NCBI GenBank assembly: GCA_021736135.1
Contig: JAIPGO010000042.1
Location: forward strand, 1 to 33,413
DNA: 33,413 nt
DNA from: Candidatus Cloacimonadota bacterium
Lineage (GTDB): Bacteria; Cloacimonadota; Cloacimonadia; Cloacimonadales; TCS61
Direction of reading: 5' to 3'
Part shown: piece after piece, positions 5,203 to 17,594 of the stretch
Numbering within the stretch: position 1 is the first letter of the stretch
Layout of the letters: the number at the start of each line of letters is the position of its first letter
Made by a program: the position numbers and the translations under genes
Notes under the pieces: model-generated
The model's input: only the letters and a program-made list of their open reading frames with translations
Told to the model about the DNA's origin: nothing
The model's database searches: none

Positions 5203-6645
5203 TTATTCTTCCACCGGAAATTGCAGAATCATTCCCACACTAAATCGCAGGATCAAAGCCGCATCGAACGCGCTTAATTGTCCGTCACCATCCACATCCG
5301 CTCTTTGCAGCCTTTCCTCTTCCCAGGGTCGCGGATCAAGCTCCGGCAACGGCTCCAGTCCCACGTAATACTGCAAGAGAAGTGAAGCATCAAAAGCTTC
5401 CACGATACTATTCTCATCAATATCCCCATAAAACGTCTCCGAACCTGAAAATGCCCTGTAGATTTCATCTATCAGTTCCTCATCCCGGTCTCCAGAAAAT
5501 TCCCAGAACATCACTCCGCCCAGTTCTTCCTGATTTACATATTCCGTCTTGTGCGATACGGATAAAGTATCATCAAAGGTGATCATTATCTGCTGCTCCG
5601 GATTAAAGATCCAGGGAACAAGCCCTTCCTCATCCCAGAATGAGTCATAACCGTTCAAATCTATATAATTATAACGAAGATCGGTATAATCAAAACAACC
5701 GTTTTCCCAGGTTCCGATCCAGGGACAGTTGATCCAGTCCTGATAAAGTCCATTGTTATTTATGGTTACACCGCCAAATCCTCTACCGTAAAAGGGGATT
5801 CCCAGATTGATCTTAGCACTGGCAATTCCCGCTGTGAGATATGCTGCCACAGCAGCAGAACCGTTATAAGAAGTATTATATGGTTCCGGCAACGGATCAT
5901 CTGTCTGCGGATATAATGCCGCTAAATGACCCGTAACCGCATCTCCTTCCCCACTCCAGGGTCCATGAAAATCGTAAGCCATAATATTGAAATAATCCAG
6001 GTAAGGTTCCATGCCCGGCAGATCATGATTAGCTATTTTTTCCGGTCCCGCCGGTACAGCGGCCGTCAGCAGATAATCACCTGCCGCATCAAGCTGCTGC
6101 CGTAATTCTGCCAGCAGGAAAACGAAATTTTCCGGATCGTCAGGACTGTAATAGTTGCCTGGCAAACCTCCACTAACCGGGTATTCCCAGTCAATATCCA
6201 CGCCGTCAAAACCGTATTCCTCAATAAATGCCACGCAGGATGCTGCAAAATCCTGACGCGACTGCTCTGTTGCTGCCACCAGTGAAAAACAGGTTGACCA
6301 CGTCCAGCCTCCCACGGAAATCAGGGTTTTCAACTCAGGATGATTTTCTTTCAAGATCTGCAACTGGTGGAATGAACCACGCAAAGAACCCGGTTCCCAA
6401 CTGTCACCGGGATAAAATCGGTCGATATCCGCATAAGCATCACCTAACATTATTTGAAGTGAATTACTATTTATATTAGCAAAAGCATAATTAATGTGCG
6501 TGATCTTATCAGCAGGAATATCCGGTACATGGTAATCCCGTCCATAAATGCTCCAGGAAGTATAATACCCGATAATATTTCTGTCAATCTGCCCCCAAAG
6601 CCCGGTAATGATCAGGCAAAAAATCAAAACCAATAACTTTTTCAT
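5203..6645 (-). CDS. Secreted GH18 chitinase with C-terminal dockerin
   Basis: 480 residues; ATG start with AAGGAG 6 nt upstream. The signal peptide is residues 1-18 (MKKLLVLIFCLIITGLWG). The GH18 catalytic barrel covers about 22-400: it opens with IIGYYTSWSIYGRDY, has the substrate motif LISVGGWTWS at 108-117 and the catalytic DGVDIDWE at 147-154 with Glu154 as the acid, and later MAYDFHGPW and GVMFWEFSGD. Residues 405-475 form a type I dockerin-like module: two calcium-loop segments, GDIDENSIVEAFDASLLLQY and ADVDGDGQLSAFDAALILRF, separated by a proline-rich linker. It should hydrolyse chitin or related beta-1,4-GlcNAc polymers outside the cell. No cohesin or scaffoldin is in the window. Confidence 0.93.
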   Translation of the reverse strand: MKKLLVLIFCLIITGLWGQIDRNIIGYYTSWSIYGRDYHVPDIPADKITHINYAFANINSNSLQIMLGDAYADIDRFYPGDSWEPGSLRGSFHQLQILKENHPELKTLISVGGWTWSTCFSLVAATEQSRQDFAASCVAFIEEYGFDGVDIDWEYPVSGGLPGNYYSPDDPENFVFLLAELRQQLDAAGDYLLTAAVPAGPEKIANHDLPGMEPYLDYFNIMAYDFHGPWSGEGDAVTGHLAALYPQTDDPLPEPYNTSYNGSAAVAAYLTAGIASAKINLGIPFYGRGFGGVTINNNGLYQDWINCPWIGTWENGCFDYTDLRYNYIDLNGYDSFWDEEGLVPWIFNPEQQIMITFDDTLSVSHKTEYVNQEELGGVMFWEFSGDRDEELIDEIYRAFSGSETFYGDIDENSIVEAFDASLLLQYYVGLEPLPELDPRPWEEERLQRADVDGDGQLSAFDAALILRFSVGMILQFPVEE

Positions 6646-11574: not shown

Positions 11575-12756
11575 ATGGAAAATGTTTTTGCACTAGTATC
11601 TCCCCATATTGATGAGAAATCAATAAAATCATATCTGGAGGAAAAAGGGCTGGGCAGTGTTGAAATATGGTCACAGGATAATATACCCCCCTTTATTAAT
11701 CCTCTAGAAGCTATTATCATCCTGTTGTTATCAGGAGGTACGGAGCTTCTAGTAAAACGGATTGTGGAAAAAGCCTTTTCTAATGTTTATGTCAACTGCG
11801 TACCAGTAAATAACTCCCTATCTGCAGCCGCGGAATTAAAGGGCTATTACAGCAATAACAATGAGATAAGTATAACTAGTTTTTCGGAAGAAACTTTTAA
11901 TCTGTTATTTAATATTGAAAACATAAAGAGCAGTATTAACAAATCAAAGCTTCTAATCATTGGACGCCCCCAGGAATGGTTATTAACTTCAGAAAATATT
12001 TCTGCACCGGCGCCTTTTCAATCAAAACTCATACCTTTGAACTGGCGAGAGTGGCAAAGTACTCTGAGCAGGATGAAACAGGAAGAAGCCATACGTGAGT
12101 CAGAATACTGGGATAACAGGACAGATCTAGGCAAGATTTCACGGGAAGTCTTTTTCAATTCCGGCTTATTATATGTCACTTTCAAGTTTCTGTTAGAGTT
12201 ACATGGGGCAAATATGCTTGGTATTCGTTGTGGAGAATTACAGAAATTTGGAGCCGCCGTATGCCTTGCTCTAGACCGCCTGAACGAAGAAGGCATTATT
12301 ACTTCCTGTGAAGGTGATATCGAAGCTGCCTTTTCCATGAAGATCTTAAATTCTCTAACTCACACCCCTTGCTGGATGACCAATATCTCGCATATTGATT
12401 TTAATACAGGGAAATTATTCCTTACTCACTGTACAATGCCGGTTGATATGTATTCGATAAATCGAAATAAGCAGCTATCACCCGAATCTGATTATGACTT
12501 TATGGAAGAATTTATGAAAGAGAAAAAATCCCTGGACGTAACAATTTTCCGGTTAGGTAAAAATCTTAATTTCTCTATACTGGAAGGTTCAATGCCACAG
12601 GGAATTATAGGAAAATTCTATCATTGCCGAACTACTATGGAAATTCAGACGGAAAACTCTCTACATGACTGGTTTGATGATATTTGCGGTAATCACCAGA
12701 TTATCACATATGGTAAATATGCAGAGCAATTACGTTATTTCTTCAGTATTCTTTGA
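11575..12756 (+). CDS. Short L-fucose/L-arabinose isomerase-fold protein
   Basis: 393 residues; ATG at 11575 with AAGGA 7 nt upstream. The C-terminal half carries the hallmarks of the FucI/AraA fold: IRCGELQKFGAAVCLALDRL, then EEGIITSCEGDIEAAFSM with the acidic motif CEGD, LFLTHCTMP with the HC motif, and a terminal NHQIITYGKYAEQLRYFFSI that matches the last strand-helix of archaeal and bacterial fucose-isomerase-like proteins. It is well short of FucI (about 590) and AraA (about 500), and the N-terminal domain is only loosely similar. A metal-dependent aldose-ketose isomerase of unknown sugar is likely. No sugar kinase, aldolase or transporter is adjacent, so the substrate cannot be inferred. 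Confidence 0.78.
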   Translation: MENVFALVSPHIDEKSIKSYLEEKGLGSVEIWSQDNIPPFINPLEAIIILLLSGGTELLVKRIVEKAFSNVYVNCVPVNNSLSAAAELKGYYSNNNEISITSFSEETFNLLFNIENIKSSINKSKLLIIGRPQEWLLTSENISAPAPFQSKLIPLNWREWQSTLSRMKQEEAIRESEYWDNRTDLGKISREVFFNSGLLYVTFKFLLELHGANMLGIRCGELQKFGAAVCLALDRLNEEGIITSCEGDIEAAFSMKILNSLTHTPCWMTNISHIDFNTGKLFLTHCTMPVDMYSINRNKQLSPESDYDFMEEFMKEKKSLDVTIFRLGKNLNFSILEGSMPQGIIGKFYHCRTTMEIQTENSLHDWFDDICGNHQIITYGKYAEQLRYFFSIL

Positions 12757-12811: not shown

Positions 12812-14164
12812 ATGAAAAAGATATATGTGCTTGATACTAATGTGCTCATCCATAATCCGGATGCGCTTTTCGCTTTTGAAGATAATGAGATCGTTATACC
12901 GATTACAGTAATTGAAGAAATAGACAATTTCAAAAAAGGTGTTGATGAGAAAGGGCGTAATGCCCGTCAAATAGGTCGCCTGCTGGATAAATTACGCAAT
13001 GAAGGCAGTCTGCAGCAGGGAGTAAAAACGGAGAAAGGCGGTAAGATCAAAGTCGTACTCAGTAAATATATTTCCCAGACAGCCAAAGATATTCTGATCA
13101 CAGATACAAATGATAACCTGATCATTGGCACGGCAATGTGGGAACAGGAGCAAAATCCGGGAGTGCCGGTATTACTTGTTTCCAAGGATGCGAATGTACG
13201 CATCAAGGCAGATGCGGTTGGTTTGAAAGCGGAAAACTATGAAACTGAGAAGATTAACTTTAATGAGATATATAATGGTTTTTCCGTTCTGGAATGCGAA
13301 CCTGAGCTTATCGAGAAATTCAAAGCCGATAAAATTTTAAAAAATGAGTATGGCGATTTTGTTCCACATCAGTTCCTCAAACTGGTTCAGAAGAACGAAA
13401 GTGGTGAAGAGATAATTGAGCTGGCACGTTATAACCATTTGACTAATGCATTTTATCCACTTGCGAATTATTCGGGACAGGAGCTTTTTGGGATCACGGC
13501 TCGAAATCCGGAACAGGCGATGGCATTTGATCTGCTTCTTGATCCGGAAGTAAAACTCGTGAGTCTGATCGGAAAAGCAGGTACAGGCAAGACCTTGATC
13601 GCTTTAGCTGCGGGATTGAACCAGGTTGTGGAAAAAGACCTCTATACGCGGCTGGTGGTTTCCCGACCTGTTTTTCCACTGGGAAAAGATCTGGGATATC
13701 TGCCGGGCACGATATCTGATAAATTATCCCCCTGGATGCAGCCGATATATGATAATATGGAAATTCTGCTGACCAATAAATCTGAAGAGGAATCACGTTC
13801 CAACGGGCGCATTTTCGGCAAAAAGAAACCTTCACTCAATGATTATCTCGATTTTGGATTCATTGAACTGGAACCCTTGACCTATATTCGCGGCAGAAGC
13901 CTTCCCAAACAGTTCATCATCATTGACGAAGCGCAAAACCTGACCCCGCATGAAATGAAAACGATCATCACGCGCGCCGGGGAAGGCACGAAGATCGTGA
14001 TCACCGGCGATCCGTATCAAATAGACATTCCCTATCTGGATAGTGATTCTAACGGTCTGAGCATAGCCTGTGAACGCCTGAAAGATGAAGAGATTGTCGG
14101 GCACGTGACTTTGCTGCAGGGCGAACGTTCGCAACTGGCAAATATTGCGGCACGGTTCTTTTAG
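12812..14164 (+). CDS. PIN-PhoH family ATPase/RNase (PhoH2 / YlaK type)
   Basis: 450 residues with two domains. An N-terminal PIN nuclease-like domain (1 to about 140) begins IYVLDTNVLIHNPDALF and continues with VIEEIDNFKKG and a later TDTNDN, supplying the acidic metal ligands. The C-terminal PhoH ATPase has Walker A IGKAGTGKTLIALAAG and Walker B FIIIDEAQNLTPHEMK, followed by KIVITGDPYQIDIPY. PhoH2 proteins with this order act as ATP-dependent RNA unwinding and cleaving enzymes in actinobacteria; the role here is inferred from the family. The ATG has AGGAG at 12802-12806. Its TAG is directly followed by the ATG of alr. Confidence 0.94.
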   Translation: MKKIYVLDTNVLIHNPDALFAFEDNEIVIPITVIEEIDNFKKGVDEKGRNARQIGRLLDKLRNEGSLQQGVKTEKGGKIKVVLSKYISQTAKDILITDTNDNLIIGTAMWEQEQNPGVPVLLVSKDANVRIKADAVGLKAENYETEKINFNEIYNGFSVLECEPELIEKFKADKILKNEYGDFVPHQFLKLVQKNESGEEIIELARYNHLTNAFYPLANYSGQELFGITARNPEQAMAFDLLLDPEVKLVSLIGKAGTGKTLIALAAGLNQVVEKDLYTRLVVSRPVFPLGKDLGYLPGTISDKLSPWMQPIYDNMEILLTNKSEEESRSNGRIFGKKKPSLNDYLDFGFIELEPLTYIRGRSLPKQFIIIDEAQNLTPHEMKTIITRAGEGTKIVITGDPYQIDIPYLDSDSNGLSIACERLKDEEIVGHVTLLQGERSQLANIAARFF

Positions 14165-16045
14165 ATGGAGAGAGATTTGCGGAGCTGGGTAGAAATAGAT
14201 TTATCAGCCTTTGCGCATAATTTCGAAGTCCTGAAGGGATTTTTGAGACCTGATGTGGAAATTATGCAGATCGTGAAAGCTGATGCTTATGGGCATGGAG
14301 CAGCAGAAATTGCTGAAAAAGCGCTGGCAGGCGGAGCTACCTGGTTAGGCGTGGCCAATGCGGATGAAGGAGCGCTTTTGCGTTTGCAGGATTTTGAATG
14401 TCCAATTCTTATTTTATCACCCAGCCTGGTTTCGGAAATACCTTTAATTATAGAAAACAGATTAACCCCGGCAGTATCGGAACTTGACTTTGCGGAGAAA
14501 CTATCTGCAGCCGGGCAGGCTGAATATAATATTCATTTGAATATAGATACCGGGATGGGCAGAAGCGGTGTCAGGTTAAAAGAAGCAGATGAGTTATATC
14601 ATAAAATTGCAAAACTGAAAAATCTGGTCATAGAAGGAATTTTTACGCATTTTGCTGCTGCTGAAAATGACCCTGAATATACGGAAACACAGATTATTGC
14701 CTTTCATAAATTTATAAGTTCTCTGCCCGTTAAACCAAAATATATCCATTCCGCCAATAGCAGTGCTGTTCTTGCCGGTAAATTATTACAGGGAAACCTG
14801 GTACGGCTGGGTGCATTAACTTACGGATTTTATACTGATGACAGCCAGAAAGATAAAATTTCCCTGCGCCCCGTAATGAGTTTTAAAAGCCGGGTCAGCC
14901 AGATTAAAATGGGACAAAAAGGCGAATATATCGGATATAACAAAACTTATTGCTGCCCTGAAGATATGCGCTATGCTATCATTCCCGTGGGATATGCCGA
15001 TGGATATGACTTTCTGCTTTCCAATCTTGGCAAAGTTATGATCAAGGGTAATATTGTGCCAGTGATCGGAAAGGTGTCTATGGATCTTATTGCCGTTGAC
15101 ATCAGCAGTTTGCCTTCCTGCGAAACCGGATGTGAGGTAATGCTTCTGGGCGCTGAAAACGAACTGCACGTGGATGATATAACCGCTTTATATAAAGGCA
15201 GTCCTTATGAACTTCTCTGCCAGATGGGGCGTCGCGCCAGGAGATTCTTTTTTGAAAATGGTAAATTAGTAGCTTCGGCTCCCCGACTGCGCCGGGAATT
15301 TGTTTCTACGGATTATGATGATCAAAAGCTGAACCGGATCATTGAATCTGCCATTGCGCAGCGACTGCAAAGCTCCGAAATTGCTGATTTCATAACTGAG
15401 GACCTGATCAAAAATATCTTTCGTGACCGGGATAAGCAAATCGATTACCGGCATGATTTTCGGCATAAGATAACTTTTCGCAGCGAAACTTCACCCGGCT
15501 TTGAGGATTATTTCGTGGTTAAAACGGAGCTGCGCTACTGCAAAAAGCTCTCAGGTTCACATTTCATTATTGCCTGTGCAAATGATGAAGCACATCTCTC
15601 GGAATATTTTCTGAAACCGCAAGTGGAATACCGCTGGTTATTAGATAGTTTTTTGCCTCTCAGCAAAGAAACATTCCTTGTGGATAAAATCATGGTTAAT
15701 GGACTGGAACTGGAAACCAGCTATAAAAAAAATAAGAATTGCCTGGAAATTCATTGCCACAATGATAAACTGTCAGAACTCACAGGAGAAGACGTTGATT
15801 TTCTGATCACCACCACGACGTTCTACCCACGTTCCTATCATCAGTTAAGCGTTTTTATCACGGATATCACCTGTGGTTATGCCATAGAATTCAATTATCC
15901 CCAAAACCTGAAAATGGAAAGCATTATACCCATATTTTCAGGCAGAGATAAATTCCCGGAACTACAGAAAACACCGCAGAAGATCCTGGCAAGTTCCAGT
16001 GACTGGGTTTTCCCGTTGAGCGGGATAGTTTTTGTTTATACGTAA
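14165..16045 (+). CDS. alr: Alanine racemase with an uncharacterised C-terminal extension
   Basis: Residues 1 to about 370 are a complete PLP-dependent alanine racemase that makes D-alanine for peptidoglycan. Lys38 in VKADAYGHG holds PLP, Tyr258 in YIGYNKTY is the second catalytic base, and IPVGYADGYDFLLSN and PVIGKVSMDLIAVDI are family signatures. The usual enzyme is 360-390 residues; this one is 626. Residues about 375-626 form an extra region with no motif I recognise: helical at first (KLNRIIESAIAQRLQSSEIA), then mostly beta-rich, ending in DWVFPLSGIVFVYT. It has no signal or membrane segment. The start abuts the phoH stop with no clear Shine-Dalgarno, suggesting translational coupling. 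Confidence 0.95.
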   Translation: MERDLRSWVEIDLSAFAHNFEVLKGFLRPDVEIMQIVKADAYGHGAAEIAEKALAGGATWLGVANADEGALLRLQDFECPILILSPSLVSEIPLIIENRLTPAVSELDFAEKLSAAGQAEYNIHLNIDTGMGRSGVRLKEADELYHKIAKLKNLVIEGIFTHFAAAENDPEYTETQIIAFHKFISSLPVKPKYIHSANSSAVLAGKLLQGNLVRLGALTYGFYTDDSQKDKISLRPVMSFKSRVSQIKMGQKGEYIGYNKTYCCPEDMRYAIIPVGYADGYDFLLSNLGKVMIKGNIVPVIGKVSMDLIAVDISSLPSCETGCEVMLLGAENELHVDDITALYKGSPYELLCQMGRRARRFFFENGKLVASAPRLRREFVSTDYDDQKLNRIIESAIAQRLQSSEIADFITEDLIKNIFRDRDKQIDYRHDFRHKITFRSETSPGFEDYFVVKTELRYCKKLSGSHFIIACANDEAHLSEYFLKPQVEYRWLLDSFLPLSKETFLVDKIMVNGLELETSYKKNKNCLEIHCHNDKLSELTGEDVDFLITTTTFYPRSYHQLSVFITDITCGYAIEFNYPQNLKMESIIPIFSGRDKFPELQKTPQKILASSSDWVFPLSGIVFVYT

Positions 16046-16568: not shown

Positions 16569-17594
16569 TTAAAATATTATTGTATTCAATTCTGCTTGAT
16601 TTAATCCATAATGCCCCATTTCTGATGCTAATAGCAGATCATCAAGGGTTTCCACTTCCGGCAACCAGTTCTCAGGGCTTAGCGTTTTCAGATCAAAACC
16701 AAGTGTTGCAGCAGCCCGGAACGTCACACGTATCCAGAGGTGCACAACACTGAAAACTTTGTCATTTAACTTGAAATTATCTTTATACCATAATTCATGA
16801 TATTTGTTCCAGACCTCCAGAAACTCAGGCTGCACACCATTCCAGCAATTTACAATCAGGGGAACCACTTCCGCAAAGTACTGCGTCTGCGGGTTTTCGG
16901 ATTGACTTGCCTTAATGCGCACATACATGATTCCAGGATTACTGGTTTTAGCGATCTGCAGATAGCTTCCCACGTCCCCGCTGAGACTCTTGTAAACATC
17001 AATCCTTTGCAAGTGCCTGCGATAGGTTTTTCTACTCACAAATTCCGGCACCGGCAGTTGCAGTATTTCTTCCAGATGCTCAGTAAACCATTCCTGATAG
17101 GCAGTTTCCAGCTCAGCATCATCTGCGATAACGATCACTTCCCTTTCGCTGAAAATTTCATTATTTTGATAGCAACTTAACTTTATACTTCCCGGTTCCT
17201 GAAAATTGTATTCCAGTTTTGTGCGGGGAGCCAGCGTCCTGGTCGTGGATACACTTCCTGTATTCAGATCATATTCGCTACGCTGAAAGATCTTATAGAA
17301 AGTATTGGCAGTGAAACTGTATCTGCCCCGGTAAATAATATAAGGTGTATAATAAAACAGAATACCGGCAAATCTTTTATAATCTTCGGAACGAAGGTTT
17401 GTGAGCATTCCAAGCACCTTGTTGATAATGTCGGTACGCCTGCTTAATACAGTTGCCGCATATTTGGGAACATATTCATAATCATATTCCCAAAGTTCAC
17501 CATTACGCTTACGGCGGTAAACAGTATTATCCAGTTTGCCGTAAATATTGCATGTCCGCTTTAGGAACGCAATGTCATTTTCCATATCACTCAT
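16569..17594 (-). CDS. Unrecognised 341-residue protein
   Basis: ATG at 17594 with AGGAG about 10 nt upstream gives 341 residues. I do not recognise the family. It is rich in Tyr and Trp, has no signal peptide or membrane helix, and no helix-turn-helix, nucleotide-binding loop or metal cluster is obvious. The N-terminal third looks helical (VLSRRTDIINKVLGMLTNLR), the middle has beta-type stretches (EREVIVIADDAELETAYQEW), and the C-terminal part is Trp-rich (EFLEVWNKYHELWYKDNF, VVHLWIRVTFRAAATLGFDL). It stands alone on the minus strand, convergent with ppnP, and the duplicated palindrome at 17625-17668 just upstream suggests it is tightly regulated. It appears to be cytoplasmic. Confidence 0.75.
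   Translation of the reverse strand: MSDMENDIAFLKRTCNIYGKLDNTVYRRKRNGELWEYDYEYVPKYAATVLSRRTDIINKVLGMLTNLRSEDYKRFAGILFYYTPYIIYRGRYSFTANTFYKIFQRSEYDLNTGSVSTTRTLAPRTKLEYNFQEPGSIKLSCYQNNEIFSEREVIVIADDAELETAYQEWFTEHLEEILQLPVPEFVSRKTYRRHLQRIDVYKSLSGDVGSYLQIAKTSNPGIMYVRIKASQSENPQTQYFAEVVPLIVNCWNGVQPEFLEVWNKYHELWYKDNFKLNDKVFSVVHLWIRVTFRAAATLGFDLKTLSPENWLPEVETLDDLLLASEMGHYGLNQAELNTIIF

Follow-up and report, generated by a model that had tools for sequence, protein, structure and literature searches.

Cloacimonadota alanine racemases carry a conserved C-terminal extension with a predicted M1 aminopeptidase N-terminal-like fold

An extended alanine racemase gene and its surroundings

The window analyzed here, a stretch of 33,413 nucleotides from a Candidatus Cloacimonadota genome, contains on its forward strand an open reading frame (14165..16045) that encodes a protein of 626 aa with no internal stop and ends in a stop codon at 16043. 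An earlier interpretation made from the letters alone (hereafter, the sequence-only reading) had described this protein as an alanine racemase (Alr) with a core complete by about residue 370 and a frame running unbroken to residue 626. Both statements are borne out: the Pfam domains stop at residue 361 and the NCBIfam model TIGR00492 at residue 362, and the frame is kept in more than 100 other genomes. The C-terminal tail, as defined here, comprises residues 362-626 (265 residues, window positions 15248-16042). The tail start originally proposed, 15270, lies two bases out of frame, residue 370 beginning at 15272, a discrepancy that is immaterial to a tail that is itself real. The features of the locus are as follows.

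12812..14164, + strand: PIN-PhoH protein (PhoH2-type; Pfam PIN_4 and PhoH), directly upstream of the racemase and outside the tail domain
14165..15247, + strand: alanine racemase core (residues 1-361), PLP barrel and C-terminal beta domain (Pfam, NCBIfam)
15248..15436, + strand: linker (residues 362-424), a pair of conserved helices preceded by the invariant motif RR.F...D at residues 376-383 (AlphaFold, conservation)
15437..16042, + strand: all-beta domain (residues 425-626), predicted fold like that of the M1 aminopeptidase N-terminal domain (AlphaFold pLDDT, Foldseek)
15668..15754, + strand: hairpin ..FLVDKIMVNGLELETSYKKNKNCLEIH.. (residues 502-530), aligning with the M1_N hairpin 'ldVdsVlvNg...y....i.I.l' (hhalign, suggestive only)

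The core has the features of an ordinary racemase. Pfam assigns residues 11-223 to Ala_racemase_N (206 bits) and residues 237-361 to Ala_racemase_C (127 bits), and TIGR00492 (alr; cut-off 168 bits) covers residues 7-362 at 333 bits. The fused MurF-Alr model NF008897 was rejected as an identity for the protein, with only its racemase half matching (286 bits against a cut-off of 804). Lys38, Arg133, Tyr258, Met306 and Asp307 do not vary among 54 aligned homologues; on the model of known Alr enzymes, we take Lys38 to be the Schiff-base PLP lysine and Tyr258 the catalytic tyrosine. A Foldseek comparison of the full-length model with solved Alr structures returned an E-value of 3.5e-37, a TMt of 0.88 and 33% identity. 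The extended Alr is the only PF00842 copy in about 70 genomes; in one of these, the one-contig, 99% complete G048, it is accompanied by a Ddl scoring over its cut-off. That G048 pairs its single Alr with a Ddl supports interconversion of L-Ala and D-Ala by the extended protein, and together with the other single-copy genomes it suggests that the extended Alr is probably the normal D-alanine source in these bacteria. About 33 genomes, the window's included, carry a short Alr as an additional or sole copy, and nearly all of these short proteins, about 28-32% identical, fall in a separate clade. The second Alr of the window's genome (L106, G000:C40:4816-5937), a 411-aa frame of ordinary length, belongs to that clade, which is present in about a third of Cloacimonadota.

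The PIN-PhoH gene abuts the start of the racemase gene and is probably cotranscribed with it. Among relatives with an informative upstream region, phoH2 precedes the extended racemase in 62 of 73, and this adjacency across most Cloacimonadota suggests an operon in which RNA metabolism and D-Ala synthesis are combined. Elsewhere in the window, positions 11575-12756 and 16569-17594 encode proteins of 393 and 341 aa, respectively, with no Pfam match, and positions 5203-6645 encode a family 18 glycosyl hydrolase that has a dockerin type I domain at its C-terminus.

Distribution, conservation and origin of the tail

A protein search of relatives identified the tail in 82 of 99 genomes, and a profile search found it fused to a racemase in 101 of 125 Cloacimonadota genomes. 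Among good Cloacimonadota genomes (completeness of 90% or more, contamination of 5% or less), 65 of 71 harbor the tail and 66 of 71 encode any Ala_racemase_C domain, such that the tail is present in 65 of the 66 racemase-bearing genomes; the exception, G045, has only a short Alr copy. The sequence-only reading had named absence from close relatives as grounds for abandoning its claim, and the tail is found in nearly all of them. A scan of 84,980 species genomes, which depends on conserved peptide motifs and could miss diverged forms in other phyla, returned 77 loci, all of them in Cloacimonadota or Neomarinimicrobiota bar one record titled Armatimonadota. This record (L058) has the same contig match and assembly as G021, from the window's own family, and is therefore mislabelled.

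The tail lies behind a racemase-length N-terminal part in 77 of 77 relatives, unless a contig edge cuts the gene. Profile searches with the tail alone, a check proposed at the outset, revealed neither a free-standing copy nor a fusion to another protein in the genomes searched, and no second copy was found in the window's own genome. No relatives of the tail were detected in IMG/VR viral contigs or on plasmids. Two seemingly longer proteins (G076, G072), reaching up to 849 aa, were discounted: their reading frames stay open across the upstream phoH2 gene, in a frame other than its own, and add no further domain.

Mean pairwise identity is 52% in the core, 50% in the helical linker and 47% in the beta domain, and the identities of core and beta domain correlate at 0.75 over pairs of sequences. 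By these comparisons, core and tail appear to evolve at similar rates. Invariant positions in the tail include R376, R377, F379, D383, K460, Y489, R490, W491, Y554, Q560, W614, S619 and F623, and the DVEYRWL and WxFPxSGVVF motifs of the beta domain are nearly invariant. Conservation of this kind would not be expected for a dispensable part of the protein.

The tail is also present in 8 of 245 Neomarinimicrobiota genomes, in one of which (G134) it lies on a single contig of 2.79 Mb; the remaining racemases listed for that phylum have the usual length. On a tree inferred from 84 racemase cores, the extended cores group together in a single clade (SH-aLRT 98), the Neomarinimicrobiota sequences fall in two places inside it, and the nearest tail-less core (L142, 396 aa) comes from a Cloacimonadota genome that also holds an extended copy. 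The simplest reading of this topology would be one fusion followed by two transfers, and we infer that the tail was gained once, in an ancestor of Cloacimonadota. Two contigs labelled as Neomarinimicrobiota (L086, L087) encode racemases nested inside Cloacimonadota, a placement that may reflect either transfer or misbinning.

Sequence searches and predicted fold

Residues 362-626 have no sequence match in Pfam, NCBIfam or the PDB, a profile built from 60 relatives retrieved nothing from PDB sequences, and a PADLOC search of the tail gave no convincing match. Scanning the 60 relatives against Pfam produced scattered weak matches only. Among the candidates, SATase_N (E 0.13) is weak and not common to the relatives, and REase_II (1.8e-4) appears in one member of 60 and is not shared; both were judged to be chance matches. 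No profile match to a known racemase extension was found either, an outcome that would have told against the sequence-only reading. In the literature, we found no publications treating Cloacimonadota together with alanine racemase, and nothing relevant, by title or abstract, on C-terminal extensions of Alr or on links between PhoH and Alr. The tail is thus not previously described in the libraries and literature searched, and it constitutes a new architecture, not a new kind of system.

The sequence-only reading had also proposed structure prediction and a fold search. The tail was modelled with AlphaFold from 60 sequences, and the succession of helices and beta-rich segments anticipated from the letters was recovered as two linker helices, at residues 386-401 and 404-420, followed by about 14 strands spanning residues 429-625. 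The beta domain is predicted confidently, with most ten-residue blocks at a pLDDT of 86-98. The linker has low pLDDT in both the tail-only and the full-length models (46-61 in the latter), and the full-length model, in which racemase and beta domain are confident, has a pTM of 0.65; the position of the beta domain is therefore not fixed in the monomer model. Helices that are uncertain yet conserved are as expected if they need a partner to fold against, but their low pLDDT could instead reflect too shallow an alignment.

The best 50 PDB matches of the tail model in Foldseek, all with E<0.001, comprise 49 M1 aminopeptidases and 3kd4, a record titled putative protease that we take to be a DUF3857-type protein. 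The M1 matches, the best of which has an E-value of 3.7e-5 and a probability of 1.00, include leukotriene A4 hydrolase (LTA4H), APN, ERAP1, IRAP and bacterial M1 enzymes. TM-scores to M1 proteins are 0.34-0.42 when computed on the whole query, low in part because 52 disordered or low-confidence residues are included, and identity is 5-10%. LTA4H has no all-beta domain other than its N-terminal one. We therefore assigned the match to the M1 N-terminal domain, and the beta domain of the tail probably adopts that fold. The earlier statement that the tail matches no recognisable domain hence stands at the level of sequence, in Pfam, NCBIfam and the PDB, and gives way at the level of fold.

At the level of sequence profiles, PF17900 had no match over its cut-off in the window protein or in 59 relatives. 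An hhalign comparison with 20 Cloacimonadota M1 N-domains aligned 27 columns, at the VNG hairpin, with P = 0.034 for the full extension, P = 0.024 when the beta part was used by itself, and a score of 21.0, against 13.4 ± 2.4 (maximum 17.6) in 40 column-shuffled controls; being above the shuffles yet short of convincing, this match is suggestive only. The DUF3857 Pfam profile (PF12969) does not match the tail, and hhalign of the tail against Cloacimonadota DUF3857 copies was null (P = 0.41). A viral fold library yielded weak matches only, the best of them to giant-virus proteins, one of which is named aminopeptidase M1-like.

Possible roles of the tail and comparison with known systems

Taken together, the results favor, as a reasonably likely interpretation, a functional racemase that bears, throughout the phylum, a non-catalytic M1-N-like accessory domain used in regulation, in partner binding or in oligomerisation. 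The racemase core would supply D-alanine for peptidoglycan, and the conserved two-helix linker would join it to a non-catalytic all-beta domain, the helices most likely packing across the dimer, or across a higher oligomer, of the racemase. In M1 enzymes the N-terminal domain takes no part in catalysis but helps to bind the amino end of the substrate. A comparable role may fall to the beta domain of the tail, which would then bind a small ligand or another protein, perhaps a cell-wall peptide or an enzyme that consumes D-Ala, and so tune or localise D-Ala production. The sequence-only reading, which took the tail for an unknown C-terminal domain on an essential cell-wall enzyme, is upheld to that extent by the lack of a profile match and by about 70 relatives in which the racemase is the single PF00842 copy; of the roles that it offered, a regulatory or binding one is the best reading and is inferred only. 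The narrower proposal that an M1-N-like domain was captured once by Alr and now serves as a sensor or docking module controlling the D-alanine supply of the phylum is more tentative, and we regard it as possible.

A purely structural tail, stabilising the dimer or building a larger assembly while binding no ligand or partner, is somewhat unlikely. Such an add-on would account for a domain that is always fused and never free in the genomes searched, and for conserved helices with regularly spaced hydrophobics, the hydrophobic moment of which is just slightly above that of shuffled sequences; the invariant polar and aromatic residues K460, E488-Y489-R490-W491, H559-Q560 and S619 suggest instead a binding surface. 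That the tail is a second enzyme, making the racemase bifunctional, is improbable. Bifunctional Alr fusions do exist, as in MurF-Alr (NF008897), and the 3kd4 title could be read in the same sense, but the tail matches no Pfam or NCBIfam enzyme and its fold matches correspond to a non-catalytic domain. Moreover, the HEXXH zinc motif, present in the genuine M1 proteins of the same genomes, is absent from the 626-aa sequence, tail included, and the tail shows no other recognisable catalytic motif, so the second catalytic role once suggested is not sustained. Equally hard to credit is a function tied to PIN-PhoH, such as RNA-linked control of cell-wall synthesis: the adjacency in 62 relatives speaks for it, but phoH2 is absent next to the tail in six of six Neomarinimicrobiota loci and in the early-branching (basal class) Cloacimonadota loci examined, which indicates that the linkage is secondary and does not explain the tail. 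Finally, an error of assembly, a fusion by frameshift or a recent joining of two genes can be dismissed, since a frame conserved, with the identical fusion, in more than 100 independent assemblies, including the single-contig G048 and G134, excludes chance or misassembly.

Alanine racemase, a drug target (of D-cycloserine), is one of the classical enzymes of cell-wall synthesis. Elsewhere it is compact and has, to our knowledge, little built-in regulation; we know of no alanine racemase for which a sensor or docking domain controls D-alanine supply. The tail is of interest because it is conserved throughout a phylum on an essential enzyme that is otherwise compact. Its presence on the usual, and often only, Alr points to a distinct handling of D-Ala production in Cloacimonadota, which are mostly uncultured and common in anaerobic digesters. 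The tail also provides a concrete domain not represented in sequence databases, and possibly a case of the M1-N fold being used outside peptidases.

Compared with ordinary bacterial Alr (TIGR00492; PF01168 and PF00842), the window protein has the same full core, PLP lysine and catalytic tyrosine, but ordinary Alr, like the second copy of the window's genome and most Alr of Neomarinimicrobiota, ends near residue 370-390, whereas here 265 further residues make up the C-terminal tail. The fused racemases MurF-Alr (NF008897) and VanT resemble it in placing an Alr-type domain within a larger chain; their partner, a ligase or membrane domain, is N-terminal, whereas the Cloacimonadota beta domain is C-terminal. 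DUF3857 domains, which occur before transglutaminase-like domains, have a similar all-beta fold and appear through 3kd4 in the same match list. The Peptidase M1 N-terminal domain (PF17900; LTA4H, APN, ERAP1) probably shares the predicted all-beta fold, and its VNG hairpin aligns weakly, but the tail has no significant sequence homology to it, is followed by no catalytic domain, lacks HEXXH and sits on a racemase.
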